The position numbers and the translations under genes are program-made. DNA of 64,000 nt from Thermanaerothrix daxensis (lineage in GTDB: Bacteria; Chloroflexota; Anaerolineae; Anaerolineales; Anaerolineaceae): NCBI RefSeq assembly GCF_001306145.1, contig NZ_LGKO01000004.1, positions 1 through 64,000 on the forward strand, given 5' to 3'. Numbering within the stretch: the stretch's first letter is position 1; each line of letters begins with the position of its first letter. Below, piece by piece: positions 15,623 to 25,142 of the stretch. The notes below the pieces were generated by a model, which saw nothing but the letters and a program-made list of their open reading frames with translations, had not been told where the DNA came from and did no database searches.

Positions 15623-15710
15623 TTCTAACGGCCTTTGTCGTATTGTGTTTGAGGAACGACGGGGCCTAACCAACACACCTTCAAGGACGGCCTCGCTATT
15701 ATTAATTATA

Positions 15711-16068
15711 TGGCTTTCTCAAAGTTCCTTGACGAATAAACAAAATTGTCCTCCTCGGTAAAAAAGTGATCCAAACCCGCCAGGCAGTAGAATACGGCAT
15801 CACCAGCCTGACCCGCGAAAAAGCCTCGCCCAAGCGGGTACTGCAAATCAGACGCAAGCATTGGTTGATTGAAACCGGCTTGCATTATCGCCGGGAGGTG
15901 ACCTTTCGGGAAGATGCCACGCGAATGACGAAAGGGACTGCGGCCCGGATACTGGCCACGGTGCATAACGTTGTCCTGGCATTGATCAAGCAGGCCGGAC
16001 ATCTTGACCGGGTTTTTGCCCTCCTTGCCTCAGGTCATTTACGACTTTGAGCGACTTTGAGAAAGCCA
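15711..16068 (+). mobile_element. Internally deleted ISAs1-type element with perfect 15-bp terminal repeats
   Basis: TGGCTTTCTCAAAGT (15711-15725) and its exact reverse complement (16054-16068) bound 358 bp. Inside, 15766-16050 (+) encodes a transposase C-terminus: RKHWLIETGLHYRREVTFRE, then HNVVLALIKQAG. The catalytic core is missing, so the element is non-autonomous. The flanking 8-mers (taattata, tccgtgat) differ, so no target duplication is visible. It ends 22 bp before the aro operon promoter and marks the island border. Confidence 0.8.
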
Positions 16069-16089
16069 TCCGTGATAGAACGCGAACCC

Positions 16090-16118
16090 TTGACATTTTT
16101 TATTAGAGTGAGTATTAT
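16090..16118 (+). promoter_or_regulatory. Consensus promoter of the aromatic amino acid operon
   Basis: TTGACA (16090-16095), a 17-bp spacer and TATTAT (16113-16118) form a near-ideal housekeeping promoter. The predicted start near 16125 gives a leader of about 200 nt before aroH, containing the leader peptide and hairpins described below. Confidence 0.75.
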
Positions 16119-16153
16119 TGCCCCCAATCCAGCCCAAGTAACCCGATTCCCCT

Positions 16154-16231
16154 ATGTCAAGCATTGCCTTTTTCTACTTTTATTTTTATTCGAAACCACC
16201 TCGGAGCAGGTTGCTCCAAGAGGGTGGTTAG
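16154..16231 (+). CDS. Phe/Tyr-rich attenuator leader peptide
   Basis: An ATG at 16154 opens a 25-codon frame ending in TAG at 16229-16231. Codons 6-12 read FFYFYFY (TTT TTC TAC TTT TAT TTT TAT), seven consecutive codons for the two end products of the operon's pathway, as in known phe and his leader peptides. The rest (SKPPRSRLLQEGG) overlaps hairpin arms. No strong ribosome site is visible upstream, which lowers certainty that it is translated. It lies between the operon promoter and aroH. Confidence 0.75.
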   Translation: MSSIAFFYFYFYSKPPRSRLLQEGG

Positions 16232-16301
16232 CCGTATGTGGTAGAAAAAGGCAACCCCCAGATTGGAAAAAACGACGTGGAGCAACCTGCTCCACGTCGT
16301 T
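16164..16301 (+). promoter_or_regulatory. Transcription attenuator with mutually exclusive hairpins upstream of aroH
   Basis: Stem A is 16164-16177 with 16241-16254 (14 bp). Stem B is AACCACC 16194-16200 with 16223-16229, topped by GGAGCA/TGCTCC at 16203-16208/16212-16217. Hairpin C is a perfect 14-bp stem, 16271-16284 with 16288-16301, followed by the U-rich TGCTTTATATT. Segment 16203-16217 is the exact reverse complement of 16279-16293, so B and C can instead pair with each other and destroy hairpin C. A ribosome stalled on the Phe/Tyr codons would leave 16203-16217 free to act as antiterminator; one reaching the stop would cover it and let terminator C form. Confidence 0.75.
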
Positions 16302-16325
16302 GCTTTATATTCGGAGGTTGTCCTT

Positions 16326-16694
16326 ATGTCCCTCATAGCCATCCGCGGTGCCATTACTTGTGACGAAAATTCAACCGCAGCCATTCTCGACGCCACGCGC
16401 CAGCTGATGAGCGCCCTCATTGATAAAAACCATCTCGATCCCAACCACGTCATCTCTATAATCTTTTCCGCTACTCCCGATCTGAATGCTGCCTACCCTG
16501 CCCAGGCAGTGCGCCAAATGGGCTGGTCTCAAGTACCCATGTTATGTCTGCAAGAAATGTATGTCACAGAAAGCCTTCCCCGCTGTTTGAGGGTCCTGAT
16601 CCATTACGAGGCTACTTCCCCGCTTTCCCCCTGCCATGTTTATCTTGGTGATGCCCAATCTCTCCGTCCTGATTGGGCTCACATGAACAAATGA
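16326..16694 (+). CDS. aroH: Chorismate mutase, AroH class
   Basis: Protein of 122 residues, the usual AroH length. It starts [20 protein letters not shown], with the Arg, Cys and Glu typical of Bacillus Aro[19 protein letters not shown] and VLIHYE near the end are also family motifs. It converts chorismate to prephenate in the cytosol. ATG 16326 follows GGAGG (16313-16317). It is the first structural gene behind the attenuator, 31 nt ahead of the DAHP synthase gene. Confidence 0.92.
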
Positions 16695-16725: not shown

Positions 16726-17739
16726 ATGATTGTCGTTATGAAACCCCAGGCTACTGAGGAACAAATCCAGCAAGTTATCCAGCGCATTGAGGACTACGGC
16801 TTAAGAGTGCACCTCTCCAAAGGCACTGAGGTGACCATCCTGGGAGTTATCGGTGATGATCGTATCATCAATCGCGATCAACTGGTGCACATGGAGGGGG
16901 TAGATAAATTGATCCCGGTGCTCAAGCCCTATAAACTTGCCTCGCGTGAGTTCCATCCCGAAGACACCGTCTTTGAGGTGAAAGGGGTGAAAATCGGCGG
17001 AGAGCAAGTTGTGGTAATCGCCGGGCCGTGCGCAGTCGAAAGCCGCGAGCAAATCCTGGAGGCCGCCCAAAAAGTTAAAGAAGCTGGGGCTCACATGCTG
17101 CGTGGTGGCGCCTATAAACCCCGCACCTCGCCTTACTCTTTCCAGGGATTGGGAGAGGAAGGTCTAAAGTACCTCAAGGAGGCCAGCGAGAAAACCGGGC
17201 TTCCCGTTGTAACAGAGGTCATGGACATTCAAACCCTGCCGCTTGTTTCTGAATATGCGGATGTTTTACAAATTGGAGCACGAAACATGCAAAATTTTCC
17301 CCTGCTTCATGCCGTGGGTGAATCGCAAAAACCCGTGCTTCTAAAACGTGGAATGTCCTCAACCTTGGAGGAATTGCTCATGTCCGCTGAATACATCCTC
17401 ACCCATGGCAATCAACAGGTCATTCTTTGCGAGCGGGGCATTCGCACCTTCGAGAACTATACCCGCAACACCCTGGATATTAACGCGGCACCGGCCCTGA
17501 AGATGCTTTCACACCTACCAGTTTTTATTGACCCAAGTCACGGTACGGGGCGCTGGGAGTTGGTAGAACCGGTCTCTCGGGCCGCAGTGGCGGCCGGTGC
17601 AGATGGCCTCATCATTGAAGTGCATCCGCGTCCCGATCAGGCACTCTCAGATGGCGCCCAATCGCTCACCCCAGAGCGATTTGCAAGCCTGATGAAAACC
17701 CTTGTGCCAGTGGCGCTTGCTGTGGGGCGGTCTCTATGA
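16726..17739 (+). CDS. aroF: 3-deoxy-7-phosphoheptulonate synthase, type I-beta with ferredoxin-like regulatory domain
   Basis: Protein of 337 residues, matching the Thermotoga-type DAHP synthase. The N-terminal ~90 residues form the ferredoxin-like regulatory domain ([17 protein letters not shown]). The catalytic barrel carries [52 protein letters not shown] and [10 protein letters not shown]. It condenses PEP and erythrose 4-phosphate, the entry step. In this class Tyr/Phe feedback acts through the N-terminal domain. AAAGGAGGAG precedes ATG 16726. It overlaps tyrA by 4 nt. Confidence 0.95.
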
Positions 17740-18596
17740 AATCACTGGACGAGGTCAACTTTACCATCATAGGGCTGGGACTGATGGGCGCCTCCCTGGC
17801 CGCTGCCCTTCGACCTCACTGTCGGTCCATCTTTGGGGTTGATCAAGATCGTGAAGCCCTTGAATGGTGCGAAGCCCAACGATGGATAGATCGTGGCTAT
17901 CAGCATCCCGAACAAGCGGTTGCTCAGGCCGATGTAGTGGTATTGGCCACTCCGGTACGCGCGATCCTTGATTTACTAGATATCATTCCCACGCATTTAA
18001 GCCCTGGCACCATCCTCACTGACATTGGGAGTACCAAAGTTGCCATCTGTCAAAAGATGCAAGAACTTCCACCCCATATCCACACAGTAGGCGGTCATCC
18101 CCTGTGCGGCAGGGAAGTGTCTGGTGCCTCGCATGCCGACGCCCAACTATTCAAAGATCGCACTTACGTTCTTGTTCCCACTCCAAACACCTCTGGCAAT
18201 GCACTTGATCTGTTGACACAGATGGTAACGGCCATCGGCGCACGCCCCTTGCTCCTGAACGCTGAAACTCATGATCACCTGGTTGCCATCACCAGCCATC
18301 TCCCCTACCTGTTGGCCTGCGCTCTAACCCAAACAACCGCCCGAGTCCCTGATCCGGATGGCTTGCTTCGGCAGTTGACCGCCAGCGGTTTCCGAGATAC
18401 CTCGCGCCTGGCAGGTTCCGATGTGAAAATGATGCTAGATATTCTGCAAACCAACCGTGAGAATATTCTGAAGGGTCTGGAAATGTATTTGCAAACTCTG
18501 CAGGGGTTGATTAACACCTTAGTGGAGGAACGGGAGGAGGATCTAAAAAACTGGCTGGTAGGCGCACAAGAAACCCGCAGGAGGTTACTGTTATGA
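17736..18596 (+). CDS. tyrA: Prephenate (or arogenate) dehydrogenase
   Basis: Protein of 286 residues. The N-terminal Rossmann fold shows [15 protein letters not shown], and then [31 protein letters not shown] (with the catalytic His) and the helical C-terminal dimerisation region with [11 protein letters not shown]. It oxidises prephenate to 4-hydroxyphenylpyruvate with NAD(P). No C-terminal ACT domain is seen. It overlaps aroF at its start and aroA at its end by 4 nt each, indicating coupled translation. Confidence 0.93.
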
Positions 18597-19906
18597 GTGC
18601 AGTTCGCGTTCTTCCGTGCACAGGCTTGCAGGGCTCTACCACCCTGCCTGGGGATAAATCCATTTCTCATCGGGCTCTGCTGCTCGGCGCGCTGGCAAAC
18701 GGCCCCAGCACGATAAACAATTTTTTACCCGGTGGGGACTGCCTGGCAACAGCGGGAGCCTTGCGTGCGCTCGGTATCTCCATCGAAACGCCATCTGAGC
18801 GCACCGTGATTGTGCACGGCAGGGGACTGAATGGGCTTCAACCATCCCACTCACCCATTAACTGCGTCCGTTCAGGGACAACTATGCGCCTGCTCGCCGG
18901 GCTTTTGGCAGGTCAATCATTTTCAAGTATTCTTACCGGAGAAGAACAGCTACTGCGGCGGCCGATGGAAAGGGTAGCGATACCCTTACGGCAAATGGGC
19001 GCTGAGATCCAAACCACAAACGGGCACGCTCCTCTTCATATCCAGGGACGGAGGCTCCATGGTACTCAACTCACGCTTGAAGTTCCCAGCGCTCAGGTCA
19101 AGAGCGCTATCCTGCTGGCTGCCCTTTATGCCGATTCCCCTACCACAATCCAAGAAACCGCACCAACCCGCGATCATACCGAACGCATGCTGCAGGCTAT
19201 GGGTGCTGTTCTCGAAGTGCACACTTCCAACAAATATCGCAAAATGACCCTTTTCCCACATCGGCATCCCCTTACTCCCCTGGAAATCGAGGTGCCAGGC
19301 GATTTCTCTTCTGCGGCCTTTCCCCTCGTGGCCGCGCTGATCATCCCCGGTTCTCACATTCACCTCAAGAATATCGGCATCAACCCCACTCGTACCGGGC
19401 TTCTGGATGCCCTCATCCAAATGGGAGCCAGTGTCCGCATCCATAACGAGCGGCTGGTCGCTAATGAACCGGCCGCCGACCTGGAAGTACAATCCAGTCA
19501 ACTCAAAGCGATTGAGATTGCCGGAGATCTTGTGGTGCGCATGATTGACGAATTCCCCATTTTCGCCATCGCTGCCACCCAGGCTCAGGGGAAAACAGTC
19601 GTCCGCGACGCCGCCGAACTCCGGGTCAAGGAAACAGACCGAATTGCAACCGTTGTCACCGAGTTACGTAAATTGGGTGCTGTCATCGTGGAGCGGCTGG
19701 ATGGCTTTGAAATCACTGGGCCGGTAAAACTTCAGAGCGCGGCCGTCAGCAGCCATGGCGATCATCGCCTAGCAATGGCACTCTTTGTTGCGGGTCTGAT
19801 AGCCCGTGACCCCATTTTTATTGATGATGTTGCCTGTGCTGCCGATTCATTCCCGGGTTTTTTGGAGACTATGCAATCTTTGGGAGCTGAGTATGCCTCA
19901 AATTGA
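18593..19906 (+). CDS. aroA: 3-phosphoshikimate 1-carboxyvinyltransferase (EPSP synthase)
   Basis: Protein of 437 residues, normal for the family. Motifs include LPGDKSISHRALLLGALA, NCVRSGTTMRLLAGLLAG, RRPMERVAIPLRQMGA, VPSAQVKSAILLAALYA, VPGDFSSAAFPLVAALI, DEFPIFAIAA, ELRVKETDRI and HGDHRLAMAL. It transfers enolpyruvate from PEP to shikimate 3-phosphate. SAQVKSA resembles the class I substrate-binding region, and the Gly of the PEP loop (SGTTMR) is present. It overlaps aroE by 14 nt. Confidence 0.96.
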   Translation: MSAVRVLPCTGLQGSTTLPGDKSISHRALLLGALANGPSTINNFLPGGDCLATAGALRALGISIETPSERTVIVHGRGLNGLQPSHSPINCVRSGTTMRLLAGLLAGQSFSSILTGEEQLLRRPMERVAIPLRQMGAEIQTTNGHAPLHIQGRRLHGTQLTLEVPSAQVKSAILLAALYADSPTTIQETAPTRDHTERMLQAMGAVLEVHTSNKYRKMTLFPHRHPLTPLEIEVPGDFSSAAFPLVAALIIPGSHIHLKNIGINPTRTGLLDALIQMGASVRIHNERLVANEPAADLEVQSSQLKAIEIAGDLVVRMIDEFPIFAIAATQAQGKTVVRDAAELRVKETDRIATVVTELRKLGAVIVERLDGFEITGPVKLQSAAVSSHGDHRLAMALFVAGLIARDPIFIDDVACAADSFPGFLETMQSLGAEYASN

Positions 19907-20783
19907 TAGCCAGACCCAAAAAGTAGGACTGATCGGCTGGCCCTTAGAACATAGTCTTTCGCCTTTGATGCACAATGCCGCCTTTGATCATCTGGGGCTT
20001 AACTGGGTGTATCTTGCTTTGCCCTTTCCGCCTCACCATCTCGAGGATGCTTTGCGCGGTTTGCGCTCATTGGGGTTCAAAGGTTTTAACATTACCGCCC
20101 CCTATAAACAGGCTATCCTGCCTTTCGTGGATGACATGAGTCCATTAGCCCAGATCCTCGGCGCCATCAATACTGTAATAATCCGAGAAACAGCTGACGG
20201 GAGCCGTGTCTTCTACGGCGATAACACCGATGTGGAGGGGTTCCTGTATGCTGTTCAACCCTTGCTTCAAAGAGTTGCTCACGACCATGCACTCATCCTG
20301 GGCGCCGGAGGTGCTGCACGTGCCGTTGCCTACGCTTTGTGTAAAGTCGGCTTCAAGACTCTGACCTTTATGGCACGCAATCTTGCGCGGGCTCATTTGT
20401 TGGAAGAAGAGGCCCAAAAATGGGGGTTTTCCACTTCGTTTAAGTCAGTACCGCCTTCAGCCGCAAGCCTCTGCGCCCTGGCTGAGCAAATCTCACTCCT
20501 GGTCAATGCCACCCCCGTGGGTACCTGGCCGACCATCCACGCCTCACCACTCCCTGATGATTTCGTCATCCCACCTCATTGCTTGGTAGTTGACCTGGTC
20601 TACAACCCGTCTAAAACTCGCCTGCTACTTCAGGCAGAAAAAGCTGGCGCTCTGGCCATCAACGGGCTAGGAATGCTGGTTCAACAAGGGGTTCTATCTT
20701 TCCGCGCCTGGACCGGGCTTGATGCACCCATAGAGGTAATGGTCCAGGCCTGCCTTAATGCCATTCATCATGTGGAGGAATGA
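19893..20783 (+). CDS. aroE: Shikimate dehydrogenase
   Basis: Protein of 296 residues. Near the start, VGLIGWPLEHSLSPLMHNAA is the shikimate-binding signature. NITAPYKQAILPF (with the catalytic Lys), GAINTVI, GDNTDVEGF, LILGAGGAARAVAYAL (nucleotide-binding loop), NATPVGTWP and GLGMLVQQG follow. ATG 19893, inside the aroA end and preceded by GGGAG, is chosen over upstream in-frame ATGs because the family N-terminus begins here. It reduces 3-dehydroshikimate to shikimate. Confidence 0.95.
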   Translation: MPQIDSQTQKVGLIGWPLEHSLSPLMHNAAFDHLGLNWVYLALPFPPHHLEDALRGLRSLGFKGFNITAPYKQAILPFVDDMSPLAQILGAINTVIIRETADGSRVFYGDNTDVEGFLYAVQPLLQRVAHDHALILGAGGAARAVAYALCKVGFKTLTFMARNLARAHLLEEEAQKWGFSTSFKSVPPSAASLCALAEQISLLVNATPVGTWPTIHASPLPDDFVIPPHCLVVDLVYNPSKTRLLLQAEKAGALAINGLGMLVQQGVLSFRAWTGLDAPIEVMVQACLNAIHHVEE

Positions 20784-20786
20784 GAG

Positions 20787-21896
20787 ATGTTGCGCTTTCT
20801 GACCGCCGGTGAGTCGCACGGACCCTGCTTGCTGGCCATCATCGAAGGATTACCCGCCGGTTTGCCCCTCAATGTGGAAGCAATAGATCGTGAATTGTGG
20901 CGCCGCCAACAGGGATATGGACGAAGCCATCGCATGAAAATCGAGCAGGATCGGGTAGAGGTCTTGAGTGGGGTCATAAGGGGGGTAACCACTGGGGCAC
21001 CTGTAGCGCTTCGAATTGAGAATCGCGATTGGGCTAATTGGAAAGAAAAATGGGAGCAGAATCTTTTGGAGCCACTAACCGTGCCACGTCCAGGACACGC
21101 CGACTATGCCGGAATGGTGAAGTACCGTCTTCTGGATGCTCGCCCGATTCTGGAGCGCGCCAGCGCCAGAGAAACTGCAGCACGGGTGGCCATCGGTGCT
21201 ATTGCTAAACAACTGTTGGCACAATTCGGCATAACCATCGGGAGTTATGTTTGCCAGATAGGTTCTGTGGTGGCCAATATCCCGCCCCACTCCTACCCGG
21301 AATTATGGAAAGCCGCAGAGGCTAGCGAAGTGCGCTGCCCCAGCCCAGAAGACAGCGAACGCATGAAAAATGCCATTGATGAAGCACGCCGGGCTCGGGA
21401 TACCTTAGGAGGGATCTTCGAAGTCCAAGCTCTCAACGTACCCATTGGACTCGGCTCGCACGTGCACTGGGATCGGAGGCTTGATGCCCGAATTGCGGCG
21501 GCCATTATGTCCATCCAGGCCATCAAGGGAATCGAGATTGGCCCCGCCTTTGAGAATGCCGGACTGCCGGGCACTCAAGTTCATGACGATCTATACCTCA
21601 GTGAAAATCAAACCGTGATCCGCACGACCAACCGTGCCGGAGGTATTGAAGGTGGTATGAGCAACGGCAATCCCATCGTAGTCAGAGCTGCGATGAAGCC
21701 AATTGCTACGACCGGCACACCTCATCAGTCGGTAGACATAGTCAACCTGCATGCTGCAACTCCGATCTATCAGCGCTCAGATATTTGTGCCGTCCCTGCC
21801 GCCTCGGTGATCGGCGAAGCCATGTTAGCTTGGGTCCTCGCCGAGGCGCTGGTCGAAAAACTGGGAGGCGACAGCCTGGAGGAAATGCGGCGATGA
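20787..21896 (+). CDS. aroC: Chorismate synthase
   Basis: Protein of 369 residues. LTAGESHGPCLLAIIEGLPA is chorismate synthase signature 1. GYGRSHRMKIEQD, PRPGHADYAGMVKY, RASARETAARVAIGAIA and GGIEGGMSNGNPIV follow. It eliminates phosphate from EPSP using reduced flavin. The start lies 3 nt after the aroE stop with GGAGGAATGAG upstream, and the end overlaps aroKB (ATGA). Confidence 0.96.
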   Translation: MLRFLTAGESHGPCLLAIIEGLPAGLPLNVEAIDRELWRRQQGYGRSHRMKIEQDRVEVLSGVIRGVTTGAPVALRIENRDWANWKEKWEQNLLEPLTVPRPGHADYAGMVKYRLLDARPILERASARETAARVAIGAIAKQLLAQFGITIGSYVCQIGSVVANIPPHSYPELWKAAEASEVRCPSPEDSERMKNAIDEARRARDTLGGIFEVQALNVPIGLGSHVHWDRRLDARIAAAIMSIQAIKGIEIGPAFENAGLPGTQVHDDLYLSENQTVIRTTNRAGGIEGGMSNGNPIVVRAAMKPIATTGTPHQSVDIVNLHAATPIYQRSDICAVPAASVIGEAMLAWVLAEALVEKLGGDSLEEMRR

Positions 21897-23494
21897 ATCG
21901 GCGTATTATCCTCACCGGGTTCATGGGAACCGGTAAGACCACGACTGGGAAGATGGTCGCCGAACGACTTGGAATACCATTTGTGGATCTAGACGAAGAA
22001 ATTTCTCGTCGGGCGCAGCGCAGCATCGCTGAGATTTTTGCCCAGGAGGGAGAACCGGCTTTCCGCAGGCTCGAATCCCGACTATTACGCCAGATCCTCG
22101 AATTGAAAAACGAAAATGTCGTCCTGGCAACTGGCGGTGGTACCTTGTTGAGTCCGTCCAACCGCTTACTCTGCGAGCAGGCCGGTGTTGTCGTTTGCCT
22201 GACCTGCAGACCTGAGGTACTAAAAGAACGTCTCCGGGCTGGAGAGATTGCAGAACGTCCACTGCTTAACACCGAGCACCCTGAAGGAGCGCTGCAAACT
22301 TTGTGGGAAGAACGTCAAAAAACTTATGCAGAGATTTTCTGGCAGTTGGACACATCCCGAAAAACCCCTGACCAAGTTGCCGAAAGCATTATCCGGATAG
22401 CCGAGATTCTGACCATGGAAGTTGAGTATCCCGGTGGCCGTTATAAAATCCTGATCGGCGAAGCTCTTTCAGAGTTGATTGGGACGATCCTGCAATCCCA
22501 CCGGGTTTCACCCGGAACCCGGGTGGCTCTAATTTCAAACGAAACCATCGCTTCACTGCACGCACCTGCTCTTATGACCCACCTTCAGGCAGATGGGTAT
22601 CCCGCTACGCTCATTAGCATCCCTGATGGAGAAGCCTACAAGACCCTTGATACTGTGCTTACCCTATATAATCAGTTGTTGGAAGCCAGAGTGGATCGCG
22701 GCAACCTGATCATTGCCTTAGGAGGTGGAGTGATTGGAGATCTTGCCGGGTTCGTCGCTTCTACCTACATGCGAGGATTACCCATCATCCATATCCCGAC
22801 TTCGCTCCTCGCCATGGTGGATGCCAGCATTGGGGGAAAAACCGGTCTGGATCTGCCCCGTGGTAAAAACCTGATCGGAACGTTCAAGCAACCCCTGGCA
22901 ATCCTGGTGGATCCCACTTACTTATCCACGCTCCCTCCGGACGAGCTGCGGTCGGGGATAGCCGAGGTCATCAAACATGGGGTCATCGGAGATTCCTCCC
23001 TTTTTACGCTGCTTGAAGCAGGTCCTACCAATGTGGCGCTCAATAAAGAGGTGCTGGCCCAAGCAATTCTTGTCAAAGCCCGCGTCGTGCAGGCAGACCC
23101 CTATGAACAGGATCTGAGAGCGATTCTTAATCTGGGACACACCATTGGCCACGCTCTAGAGACACTAAGCAACTATACAATCCGCCATGGTGAAGCCGTC
23201 AGCATAGGAATGGCTGCTGAAGCCCTGCTAGCACAACAACTGGGAGTGACCTCACCTGAAGTTGTTAGTCGGATTCATAAAGTCCTAAGAAAGTGGTCTC
23301 TCCCACTTTATCACCCTCTCTTAGAAAATGAGACTTTGCTTGAGATGATCCAACATGACAAAAAGCATAAACGTGGTAAATTGCAATGGCCCCTTCCCAA
23401 CCAGATTGGTAAAGTGATCCTGGTATCAGATATTGACGCCCCCAGTATCATACGAGCCATTGAAACGCTCCGCGAGGTAGCCTATGAGTCGTGA
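21893..23494 (+). CDS. aroKB: Bifunctional shikimate kinase / 3-dehydroquinate synthase fusion
   Basis: Protein of 533 residues. Residues ~1-170 are shikimate kinase: ILTGFMGTGKTTTGKMVA (P-loop), FVDLDEEI, FRRLES, LATGGGTLL and ERPLL. A short linker near residue 175 leads into 3-dehydroquinate synthase: PDGEAYKTLDT, ALGGGVIGDLAGFVASTYMR, IPTSLLAMVDASIGGKTG, GKNLIGTFKQP, ELRSGIAEVIKHG and NLGHTIGHALE. Both active sites look complete. ATG 21893 is chosen over the longer upstream frame because it starts the kinase fold and overlaps aroC by 4 nt. The same fusion is known in Thermotoga (from memory). Confidence 0.95.
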   Translation: MNRRIILTGFMGTGKTTTGKMVAERLGIPFVDLDEEISRRAQRSIAEIFAQEGEPAFRRLESRLLRQILELKNENVVLATGGGTLLSPSNRLLCEQAGVVVCLTCRPEVLKERLRAGEIAERPLLNTEHPEGALQTLWEERQKTYAEIFWQLDTSRKTPDQVAESIIRIAEILTMEVEYPGGRYKILIGEALSELIGTILQSHRVSPGTRVALISNETIASLHAPALMTHLQADGYPATLISIPDGEAYKTLDTVLTLYNQLLEARVDRGNLIIALGGGVIGDLAGFVASTYMRGLPIIHIPTSLLAMVDASIGGKTGLDLPRGKNLIGTFKQPLAILVDPTYLSTLPPDELRSGIAEVIKHGVIGDSSLFTLLEAGPTNVALNKEVLAQAILVKARVVQADPYEQDLRAILNLGHTIGHALETLSNYTIRHGEAVSIGMAAEALLAQQLGVTSPEVVSRIHKVLRKWSLPLYHPLLENETLLEMIQHDKKHKRGKLQWPLPNQIGKVILVSDIDAPSIIRAIETLREVAYES

Positions 23495-23957
23495 ATCCCG
23501 GTTCCATATTTTAGTCATCCACGGTCCTAATCTTGGTCTGTTAGGACAACGTGAGCCTTCTGTGTATGGAAAAAAGTCTCTTGAACAAGTCAATGAAGCT
23601 CTTATTGCCTATGCGAATAATCATGGAGGGCTGCTACACATCTTTCAAAGCAACTCCGAGGGCGACATCATTGATCGGTTAATTGCTGAAATGGATTGGC
23701 TAGATGGGATCCTCATTAACGCAGGTGGTTACACCCATACCAGTGTTGCCATCCGCGATACCCTAGCAGCCATTGGGAAACCCGCCATTGAGGTCCACCT
23801 CTCGAATATATATGCGCGAGAACCCTTCCGACACTCCTCCCTGCTGGCTCCGGTATGTCTGGGGCAGATAAGCGGGCTGGGCTGGCGTTCGTATCTTTAC
23901 GGTCTCATGGCCCTGCTGGACATCCTATCTGAACGTGCAGATTTCACCTCATCCTGA
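23484..23957 (+). CDS. aroQ: Type II 3-dehydroquinate dehydratase
   Basis: Protein of 157 residues. ILVIHGPNLGLLGQREPSVYG holds the catalytic Tyr and Arg region; FQSNSEGDIIDRL, LINAGGYTHTSVAIRD (Asn/His site) and IEVHLSNIYAREPFRHSSLL (catalytic His) follow. It dehydrates 3-dehydroquinate to 3-dehydroshikimate. The start overlaps the end of aroKB by 11 nt. Confidence 0.95.
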   Translation: MSRESRFHILVIHGPNLGLLGQREPSVYGKKSLEQVNEALIAYANNHGGLLHIFQSNSEGDIIDRLIAEMDWLDGILINAGGYTHTSVAIRDTLAAIGKPAIEVHLSNIYAREPFRHSSLLAPVCLGQISGLGWRSYLYGLMALLDILSERADFTSS

Positions 23958-23979: not shown

Positions 23980-24279
23980 ATGAAACATTTTCTTGTAGAA
24001 ATCACTTACACTCGCCCATTTGAGGAAATCGCTCCCATTGTGCCGCAACATCGCGCCTTCTTGCAGGAAGGCTACGACCGAGGTTGGTTATTGATGTCGG
24101 GTCCCATGAACCCGCGCATTGGCGGGATTGTCATCGCCCGTGCCGAAAGAGAAGAGCTCCTGCGGAATTACTTCTCACGTGACCCTTACGCACTCCATCA
24201 CATGGCCAGTTATCGGTTCTTGGAGTTTGATCCGGTCAAGTACCAACCCTTCCTGGATGAGTGGATTACAAAGGAATAA
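23980..24279 (+). CDS. YciI-like small protein
   Basis: Protein of 99 residues with the YCII alpha/beta fold pattern: HFLVEITYTRPFEEI, HRAFLQEGYDRGWLLMSGP, and the segment FSRDPYALHHMASYRFLEFDP, resembling the DPF..A....Y.V..F motif. It lies between aroQ and pheA with close spacing and an AACGGAGGTAA ribosome site, so it is part of the aromatic operon. The biochemical role is not known. Confidence 0.8.
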   Translation: MKHFLVEITYTRPFEEIAPIVPQHRAFLQEGYDRGWLLMSGPMNPRIGGIVIARAEREELLRNYFSRDPYALHHMASYRFLEFDPVKYQPFLDEWITKE

Positions 24280-24302: not shown

Positions 24303-25142
24303 ATGCCTGTAAAGACAATAGCCTTCCAGGGCGAGCATGGGGCTTTCTCAGAAAGCGCCGCTCTGGAGTACTTTGGATCTCACATTCAAACCCTACCCTG
24401 TGACACATTTGAGGCTGTTTTTGAGGCCGTCGAACAGGGCAAAGCAGAGTGGGGTATCATTCCAATTGAAAACTCACTTGCCGGAAGTGTACATCAGAAT
24501 TATGATTTGCTCCTTTCCCATGCCCTGCACATCGCTGGGGAATATTATCTCAGGATACGGCATTGCCTTATTGGTTGGCCAGGCGCAAAAATCGAGAATC
24601 TACAAAAAGTGATCAGCCATCCTCAGGCCTTGGCCCAATGTCGCGAAACCCTCCAACGTATGGGAATTTCACGCACAGAACCCGTATATGACACTGCGGG
24701 AGCAGTCCGCCTTTTACGGGAACACCCTGACCCCACAGTGGCCGCCATTGCTTCCCGGCGTGCCGCTGAGGTTTACCAAATGAGCATTTTGGCTGAAGGG
24801 ATCGAAGATCACGCGGCAAATTTCACACGCTTTTTAATATTGAGCCGCGAAGCAGTAGCCCCACCCCCCAGCCAATCCAAAACCTCGATTGTATTCACTT
24901 TGAACAACCGTCCAGGGGCTCTTTTTCGCGCTCTCAGCGTGTTCGCCTTGCGCGAAATTGATCTAGCAAAGATCGAATCTCGCCCTTTAGTGGGCAAGCC
25001 GGGAGAGTACCTTTTCTACGTGGATTTCTTCGGGTCACTGGCTGATCAAGTAGTACACCGCGCTCTAGAAAACCTAAAAGAGTTTGCACCGATGCTTCGC
25101 ATTCTGGGTTGCTATCCTTTTCACCCCCTGCCATCATCTTAG
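24303..25142 (+). CDS. pheA: Prephenate dehydratase with ACT domain
   Basis: Protein of 279 residues. The catalytic part shows IAFQGEHGAFSESAA, WGIIPIENSLAGSVHQNYDLL, VISHPQALAQCRETL, YDTAGAVRLL, AAIASRRAAEVY and HAANFTRFLIL (the TRF motif). The C-terminal ~85 residues form an ACT domain (TLNNRPGALFRAL, then KIESRPLVGKPGEYLFYVDF) that binds Phe for feedback inhibition. It makes phenylpyruvate and closes the operon; an aminotransferase would finish Phe and Tyr. Confidence 0.95.
   Translation: MPVKTIAFQGEHGAFSESAALEYFGSHIQTLPCDTFEAVFEAVEQGKAEWGIIPIENSLAGSVHQNYDLLLSHALHIAGEYYLRIRHCLIGWPGAKIENLQKVISHPQALAQCRETLQRMGISRTEPVYDTAGAVRLLREHPDPTVAAIASRRAAEVYQMSILAEGIEDHAANFTRFLILSREAVAPPPSQSKTSIVFTLNNRPGALFRALSVFALREIDLAKIESRPLVGKPGEYLFYVDFFGSLADQVVHRALENLKEFAPMLRILGCYPFHPLPSS

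Follow-up and report, generated by a model that had tools for sequence, protein, structure and literature searches.

We analyzed the leader region of an aromatic amino acid operon in Thermanaerothrix daxensis (phylum Chloroflexota, class Anaerolineae, order Anaerolineales). The DNA examined was a stretch of 64,000 nucleotides (positions 1–64,000 of the forward strand of contig NZ_LGKO01000004.1, assembly GCF_001306145.1), which we call the window; all features described here are on its forward strand. An original prediction, made from the letters alone, had placed a ribosome-mediated attenuator responding to phenylalanine (Phe) and tyrosine (Tyr) upstream of the gene aroH. The consensus promoter that it named is a sigma-70-type site, TTGACA-17-TATTAT, at 16090–16118 (–35 box at 16090–16095, –10 box at 16113–16118) that agrees with the consensus at 11 of 12 positions. 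Downstream lies the candidate leader peptide open reading frame (ORF), MSSIAFFYFYFYSKPPRSRLLQEGG, at 16154–16231, with 25 codons and the stop codon TAG at 16229–16231. As proposed, it carries seven consecutive control codons, FFYFYFY, which we read from the window sequence at 16169–16189. Folding of the region gave a helix of 15 pairs, P1 (taken as stem A of the prediction), whose 5' strand (16164–16178) overlaps the first Phe/Tyr codons and whose 3' strand (16240–16254) is downstream of the leader stop. It also gave an inner hairpin, H2 (16194–16229; stem B). The 5' arm of H2 comes after the control codons, and the hairpin includes a putative antiterminator strand that lies within the leader ORF (16203–16218). 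The exact complementarity noticed earlier between 16203–16217 and 16279–16293 was confirmed and extends to 16 nt (16203–16218 with 16278–16293). By comparison, the longest exact match in 5000 single-base shuffles was 12 nt. The predicted terminator hairpin (16271–16301; stem C) has 14 perfect pairs and a 3-nt loop (16285–16287), as expected, and is followed by the tail GCTTTATATT (16302–16311), in which the U-rich character that had been claimed is weak. The Shine-Dalgarno sequence of aroH, GGAGG, is at 16314–16318. Folding of 16124–16320 yielded –74.2 kcal/mol compared with –46.9 kcal/mol (standard deviation 4.1) for shuffled sequences.

The genes that follow very likely form one operon under the putative attenuator, with the order aroH-aroF-tyrA-aroA-aroE-aroC-aroKB-aroQ-(YCII)-pheA as read from family models and gene positions. 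Matches above the model cut-offs were obtained for the chorismate mutase gene aroH (16326–16694; TIGR01796, 134 bits), an aroF-type DAHP synthase gene (16726–17739; NF006421 and TIGR01361), aroA (18593–19906; TIGR01356), aroE (19893–20783, start codon inferred; TIGR00507), aroC (20787–21896; TIGR00033), the type II dehydroquinase gene aroQ (23484–23957; TIGR01088), and the prephenate dehydratase gene pheA (24303–25142; NF008865). The gene assigned to tyrA (17736–18596) belongs to the prephenate dehydrogenase family by models that all score under their curated cut-offs. For the aroK-aroB fusion (21893–23494, start codon inferred) the aroB model TIGR01357 was above its cut-off, whereas the shikimate kinase models were below theirs. 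The gene identities first proposed are thus supported by family models except for tyrA and the shikimate kinase half of the fusion, and a gene for a YCII-domain protein (23980–24279; PF03795, above its cut-off) that had not been listed lies between aroQ and pheA. On the other side of the leader, a 360-bp stretch (15710–16069) with perfect 16-nt inverted repeats at both ends contains a remnant of a transposase DDE domain (PF01609, just below the cut-off) and ends 20 bp upstream of the –35 box.

The original prediction had named conservation of the Phe/Tyr run in relatives as a check. For this we drew a sample of 101 genomes around the window. An AroH match was found in 49 of these and 48 aroH loci of the order were read; the 49th match (G099), which is only a fragment of aroH and lies at the edge of its contig, was left out. 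We counted as a leader a short frame that starts with ATG, has five or more aromatic residues in nine, and lies no more than 250 nt upstream; its start was picked by eye among the candidate frames. A Phe/Tyr-rich leader was found upstream of aroH in 42 of the 48 loci, and 100 dinucleotide-shuffled sets gave 0.44 on average and never more than three. In two of the other loci (L090 and L115) aroF precedes aroH and the leader precedes aroF, and one more genome (that of L096) has a leader before aroF at another site (L195). Both Phe and Tyr occur in all 42 leaders with totals of 157 Phe and 157 Tyr, and tryptophan (Trp) occurs in 11. In 39 of 42 loci aroH and aroF share a strand, with aroF no more than 900 nt downstream; the gaps are 929 and 969 nt in two, and one is at a contig edge.

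A promoter-like site matching at least nine of 12 consensus positions precedes 37 of the 42 leaders (shuffles: mean 2.65, maximum four). A promoter could be located before 39 leaders, and in 24 of these the –10 box ends 6–12 nt from the leader ATG, so transcripts should start within a few bases of the ATG. This suggests a near-leaderless leader mRNA in 24 of the 39 loci. T. daxensis is not among these, the distance being 35 nt in the window and in its congener. A Shine-Dalgarno-like word was seen before four of the 42 leaders and before 40 of the 42 aroH genes. The predicted position of the leader ORF at the 5' end of the transcript in the 24 loci resembles that in the leaderless trpL of Sinorhizobium meliloti, as described in PMC7298713, although that bacterium is from another phylum, its leader reads another amino acid, and the 35-nt distance sets the window apart.

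The hairpins upstream of aroH might instead act on translation by hiding the aroH ribosome-binding site, which stalling in the leader would then open. The weak U-tract of the window would be compatible with this, and the minimum-energy fold of the whole leader pairs 16311–16314 and 16316–16320, which overlap the Shine-Dalgarno sequence, with upstream bases. By eye, GGCAACCCCC near 16251–16262 is also partly complementary to GGAGGUUG. However, hairpin C ends 12 bases upstream of the Shine-Dalgarno sequence and excludes it. In addition, a T-rich tail with at least six T in the nine bases past the last G/C of the stem is present in 40 of the 42 loci, and the distance from the hairpin to the aroH start ranges from 10 to 102 nt. 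The T-rich stretch and the variable distance fit termination rather than sequestration, and we consider translational control improbable.

Pairing was examined by matching the leader ORF end of each locus with its own terminator apex and with that of every other locus in 20,000 permutations. The terminator of each locus was chosen by an in-house score combining hairpin and T-tract, and the six aroH loci with no leader directly upstream were excluded, leaving 42 of 48. Antiterminator pairing within a locus had a mean of –17.65 kcal/mol compared with –14.38 (standard deviation 0.48) in the permuted sets, and none of the 20,000 permutations was as good. The same absence of equally good permutations was observed with P1 (–14.79 compared with –11.40) and H2 (–11.28 compared with –9.81). 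By contrast, the advantage of own partners was absent in three control pairings (aromatic codons with the apex, post-stop spacer with the apex, and ORF end with the basal 5' arm), and when, as a further control, the aromatic part was paired with the ORF end, the count was 865 of 20,000 permutations. Covariation was counted on an alignment, A1, of 36 of the 42 leaders from which the divergent L083, L087, L095, L110, L120, and L122 were excluded. In it 89.3% of the H2 and terminator pairs are formed compared with 75.7% after shuffling, and changes on both sides occur at 14 of the 16 pairs, with none of 500 shuffles reaching either value; these counts lean towards the H2 structure, which we defined manually on a single row after RNAalifold on MAFFT alignments had returned the terminator stem only. 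The terminator and antiterminator structures are mutually exclusive, both covary, and an own advantage was seen in 35 of 42 loci. Together, these comparisons indicate that P1, H2, the antiterminator, and the terminator all covary in relatives, in agreement with what had been proposed for stems A, B, and C and the pairing between B and C.

The same leaders could be read as nascent-peptide arrest sensors similar to TnaC, where the peptide binds a ligand in the ribosome tunnel; the peptides are short, contain recurring residues (FYG...AVGGA), and are encoded upstream of a metabolic operon. Against this, the number and order of the aromatic residues vary, the totals of Phe and Tyr are equal, and the C-terminal residues that recur fall on the antiterminator strand. 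Where a clade has a different terminator apex, its C-terminus differs accordingly, which points to selection on RNA pairing. On this sequence evidence we regard arrest by the peptide as very improbable.

To these comparisons we added folding calculations with a ribosome on the leader. With the ribosome on the last control codon and a third of the 3' arm of the terminator out, at least four antiterminator pairs formed in 40 of the 42 loci. In the window, there were 13.9 such pairs at this point and 16.1 when two thirds of the arm were out. The mean over loci for a ribosome stalled midway through transcription of the hairpin was 12.3 pairs compared with 9.7 when terminators were swapped and 6.6 when leader ends were shuffled. 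A ribosome at the stop masks the antiterminator strand in this calculation, so the zero pairs obtained there follow by construction.

From these data we consider it highly probable that the element controls the aromatic operon by ribosome-mediated transcription attenuation, sensing how much charged tRNA-Phe and tRNA-Tyr is available. Under a shortage of Phe or Tyr, a ribosome would stall on FFYFYFY and thereby block both P1 and the 5' arm of H2, leaving the ORF end free. The freed ORF end would then pair with the 5' arm and loop of the nascent terminator before its 3' arm is complete, and RNA polymerase would read through. With an ample supply of both amino acids, the ribosome would proceed to the stop and cover the antiterminator strand, and the terminator would form. 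Because the antiterminator strand lies in the last codons of the leader, the finishing ribosome would itself hide it. With no ribosome, P1 and H2 would hide this strand in about half of the loci. We infer both the stalling of ribosomes on the control codons and the stop of RNA polymerase at the hairpin from sequence.

Attenuation at trpL is an established control in Escherichia coli. As comparators we used pheL-pheA (L319) and trpL-trpE (L320) from this bacterium, and what we say about E. coli wiring was computed from these two leaders only. Both resemble the element described here in having a leader ORF rich in control codons, alternative hairpins, and a terminator between the leader and the first gene, and both form a transient antiterminator in the same stalled-ribosome calculation. 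On sequence grounds, the interpretation in the original prediction, which cited enterobacterial pheA/his attenuation, is supported. The wiring differs in where the antiterminator partner lies. In trpL, with the ribosome on the control codons, it is after the leader stop (5.0 pairs compared with 0.1–0.6 in the ORF), and in pheL it is mainly after the stop (9.3 compared with 4.8 in the ORF; 7.3–9.3 compared with 0–1.7 for the last two codons). By contrast, the partner in the 42 leaders is mainly inside the ORF, with a mean of 12.3 pairs compared with 0.9 after the stop, and this holds for 40 of 42 loci. Here the run also mixes Phe and Tyr codons, and the operon comprises the shikimate pathway with both the Phe and the Tyr branch. 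Pairing that covers the terminator loop and 3' arm (at least two pairs) was found in 36 of the 42 loci and hardly in trpL; we dropped it as a difference from E. coli because pheL stalled on Phe 6–11 covers the loop and 3' arm too.

Several results weigh against attenuation as just described. Once the full hairpin is out the terminator wins at equilibrium in nearly all loci even when the ribosome is stalled; at least four antiterminator pairs are kept at full equilibrium in only four of 42 loci from the last control codon and two of 42 from a middle codon. In these calculations the exposed segment breaks hairpin C, as the original prediction had it, midway through transcription but not at full equilibrium. 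Equilibrium folding alone was rejected as a means to tell starved from fed cells since it did not separate the two states, and from the success of the terminator under stalling we infer that the decision is kinetic. The terminator likewise wins at full equilibrium in stalled trpL. In pheL it wins from the last Phe codon, but the antiterminator is kept when the ribosome stalls in the middle of the run, unlike in most of the 42 loci. With no ribosome at all, antiterminator pairing is predicted midway in 17–21 of 42 loci. In seven of the 42 loci (L091, L104, L105, L111, L120, L122, and L123) own antiterminator pairing is weaker than the foreign mean, one of the five measures of covariation, the count of pair types, is no better than in shuffles (172 of 500), and both the permutation and the covariation tests ignore shared ancestry. 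In three of the 48 loci (L093, L098, and L108) no leader was found near aroH (their operon starts were not searched). Lastly, the weak U-tract of the window passes the T count at exactly six of nine, with two of these T contributed by the stem.

The distribution of the element was examined with a covariance model of it, R1. The model found a match in 160 of the 301 genomes sampled from the order. Among 301 genomes drawn from the phylum it matched 31, of which 20 are in the order, two elsewhere in the class, and nine in other classes. The 11 matches outside the order had E values from 7.6e-5 to 8.1e-3. As judged by R1, the element is present in more than half of the sampled genomes of the order and in other Chloroflexota lineages, and it is no peculiarity of one genome. 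In the T. daxensis genome itself (97% complete) there was a single aroH match and a single R1 match at E values up to 10, both being the window locus. Among 20 R1 matches read by eye, 14 are before an aromatic gene, four before an aspartokinase gene (with leaders rich in threonine, Thr), and two before a tryptophanase-like gene. A search for aroH across the phylum gave leaders (at least five aromatic residues in nine) in 25 of 57 upstream regions, one region (L281) being from the order; many families had no leader, and most families consist of one or a few genomes.

For a further pairing test 24 leaders were chosen, with near-duplicates and L294 (no clear terminator by eye) excluded, and L262 was then dropped. 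The 23 loci that remained, some of them mutually close, comprise five from the same class, 16 from the same phylum only, and two metagenome-assembled genomes (MAGs) of Anaerolineae (L002 and L029) whose order was unchecked. Own antiterminator pairing in these 23 loci, 21 of them outside the order, was –17.5 compared with –14.6 when permuted, and none of 20,000 permutations was as good; with 15 representatives the count was four of 20,000. Exact matches between leader end and terminator seen by eye include TTGTCGCT/AGCGACAA (L175), GGTGTAGA/TCTACACC (L291), and CCGGCTGC/GCAGCCGG (L289). Three of 80 named records searched carry a leader, namely L040 (an Anaerolineales MAG, JAFGMV010000071.1; E value 1.3e-14) and, more weakly, L002 (0.0084) and L029 (0.016). 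Short frames and hairpins are commonplace, and a short frame beside palindromic repeats could arise by chance and have no function. Conservation and covariation, seen in different families and in several of the phylum's lineages, contradict this idea, which we regard as having next to no likelihood.

Other leaders were noted along the way. In the order, leader ORFs rich in Thr, with a terminator-like hairpin after them, were seen before aspartokinase genes (L183–L186, L232–L238, L241, and L242, with L232 and L233 duplicating the genes of L183 and L184), and R1 matched four of these Thr-rich leaders. With a loose Thr-count filter applied without a shuffle control, 14 of 30 aspartokinase loci pass, some probably by chance. 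Two loci, L191 and L192, have a Tyr-rich leader (YAYYYYG) with a hairpin and T-tract directly before the first gene, the first 60 residues of which in L191 match tryptophanase and tyrosine phenol-lyase models; a Tyr-rich leader before a degradative enzyme is odd if starvation switches the gene on. The leader of L190, MNNKIFIVNCKFDFIDGIEQPHTVSGVY, is before a pheA-like gene and, by eye, has Phe mixed with isoleucine and few aromatic residues. In the Clostridia genome of Bittarella massiliensis (L061:2747–2894), aroF is preceded by a short frame rich in Tyr and a hairpin resembling a terminator; this was the fourth R1 match among the 80 named records, with an E value of only 0.97.

We also compared the element with known RNA families. 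T-box leaders read tRNA charging and control amino acid operons by termination. Rfam models at their gathering scores, and at E values up to 10 in the leader region, gave no match in the window or in 40 of the 42 leader-bearing loci (all except L127 and L128), and the T-box model RF00230 at its gathering score gave none in the window or the 40 scanned aroH leader loci. Identity with a T-box or an Rfam leader was therefore rejected. The amino acid leaders of Rfam for Trp, histidine (His), leucine (Leu), and Thr share the regulatory idea with no model match here, and a Phe leader is also among these families. By contrast, a T-box at or above the gathering score was found before trpE in 10 of 15 loci of the order (L203–L217), including that of T. 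daxensis (L217). A Trp-rich leader before trpE was considered and rejected; frames with at least two Trp codons occur within 420 nt upstream in seven of 16 trpE-type loci and none is leader-like by eye. With a T-box before trpE but not before aroH, Trp appears to be read by a T-box and Phe and Tyr by the ribosome in this order.

In open-access literature, as far as titles and abstracts of the matches listed go, we found no description of an aromatic operon in Chloroflexota that is controlled by a leader-peptide attenuator. Several papers give context. According to PMC2965389 (2010), leader-peptide systems had, to its authors' knowledge, been shown only in Proteobacteria and Actinobacteria, to which they added Firmicutes. 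Other sources cover RNA motifs in 24 groups including Chloroflexi, with amino acid leaders of the Trp, His, Leu, and Thr families (PMC3766115), His leaders in Firmicutes (PMC9413887), T-boxes in Dehalococcoides, two of them tryptophan related (PMC2494555), candidate attenuators upstream of tyrA supraoperons of other phyla (PMC1173090), a pheA leader and a prediction for aroF in Shewanella (PMC2659441), and leaderless trpL in Sinorhizobium (PMC7298713), and Chloroflexi are named among groups with few genomes in PMC4833913. The principle of attenuation is known mainly from other phyla, and what is new is its very likely occurrence in Chloroflexota and the antiterminator strand inside the ORF. 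We lean, by a small degree, to a broader reading in which Chloroflexota have an attenuator class of their own, apparently of independent origin. This class would have a leader ORF that is often near-leaderless and free of a Shine-Dalgarno sequence, with the antiterminator strand in its last codons, and would include Phe/Tyr leaders of aroH, aroF, and pheA operons and Thr-rich aspartokinase leaders, in lineages that read Trp by T-box.

The analysis would place leader-peptide attenuation of an amino acid operon in the deep phylum Chloroflexota, and R1 together with the leader motif gives annotators a means to find the element. In this arrangement the antiterminator is part of the sensor ORF, and the same bases would be under selection for their coding and for their pairing. 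With its mix of Phe and Tyr codons, the leader would serve as one sensor for the shikimate pathway and the two branches, alongside a T-box for Trp, and a division of aromatic amino acid sensing between two mechanisms thereby becomes directly testable in these bacteria.
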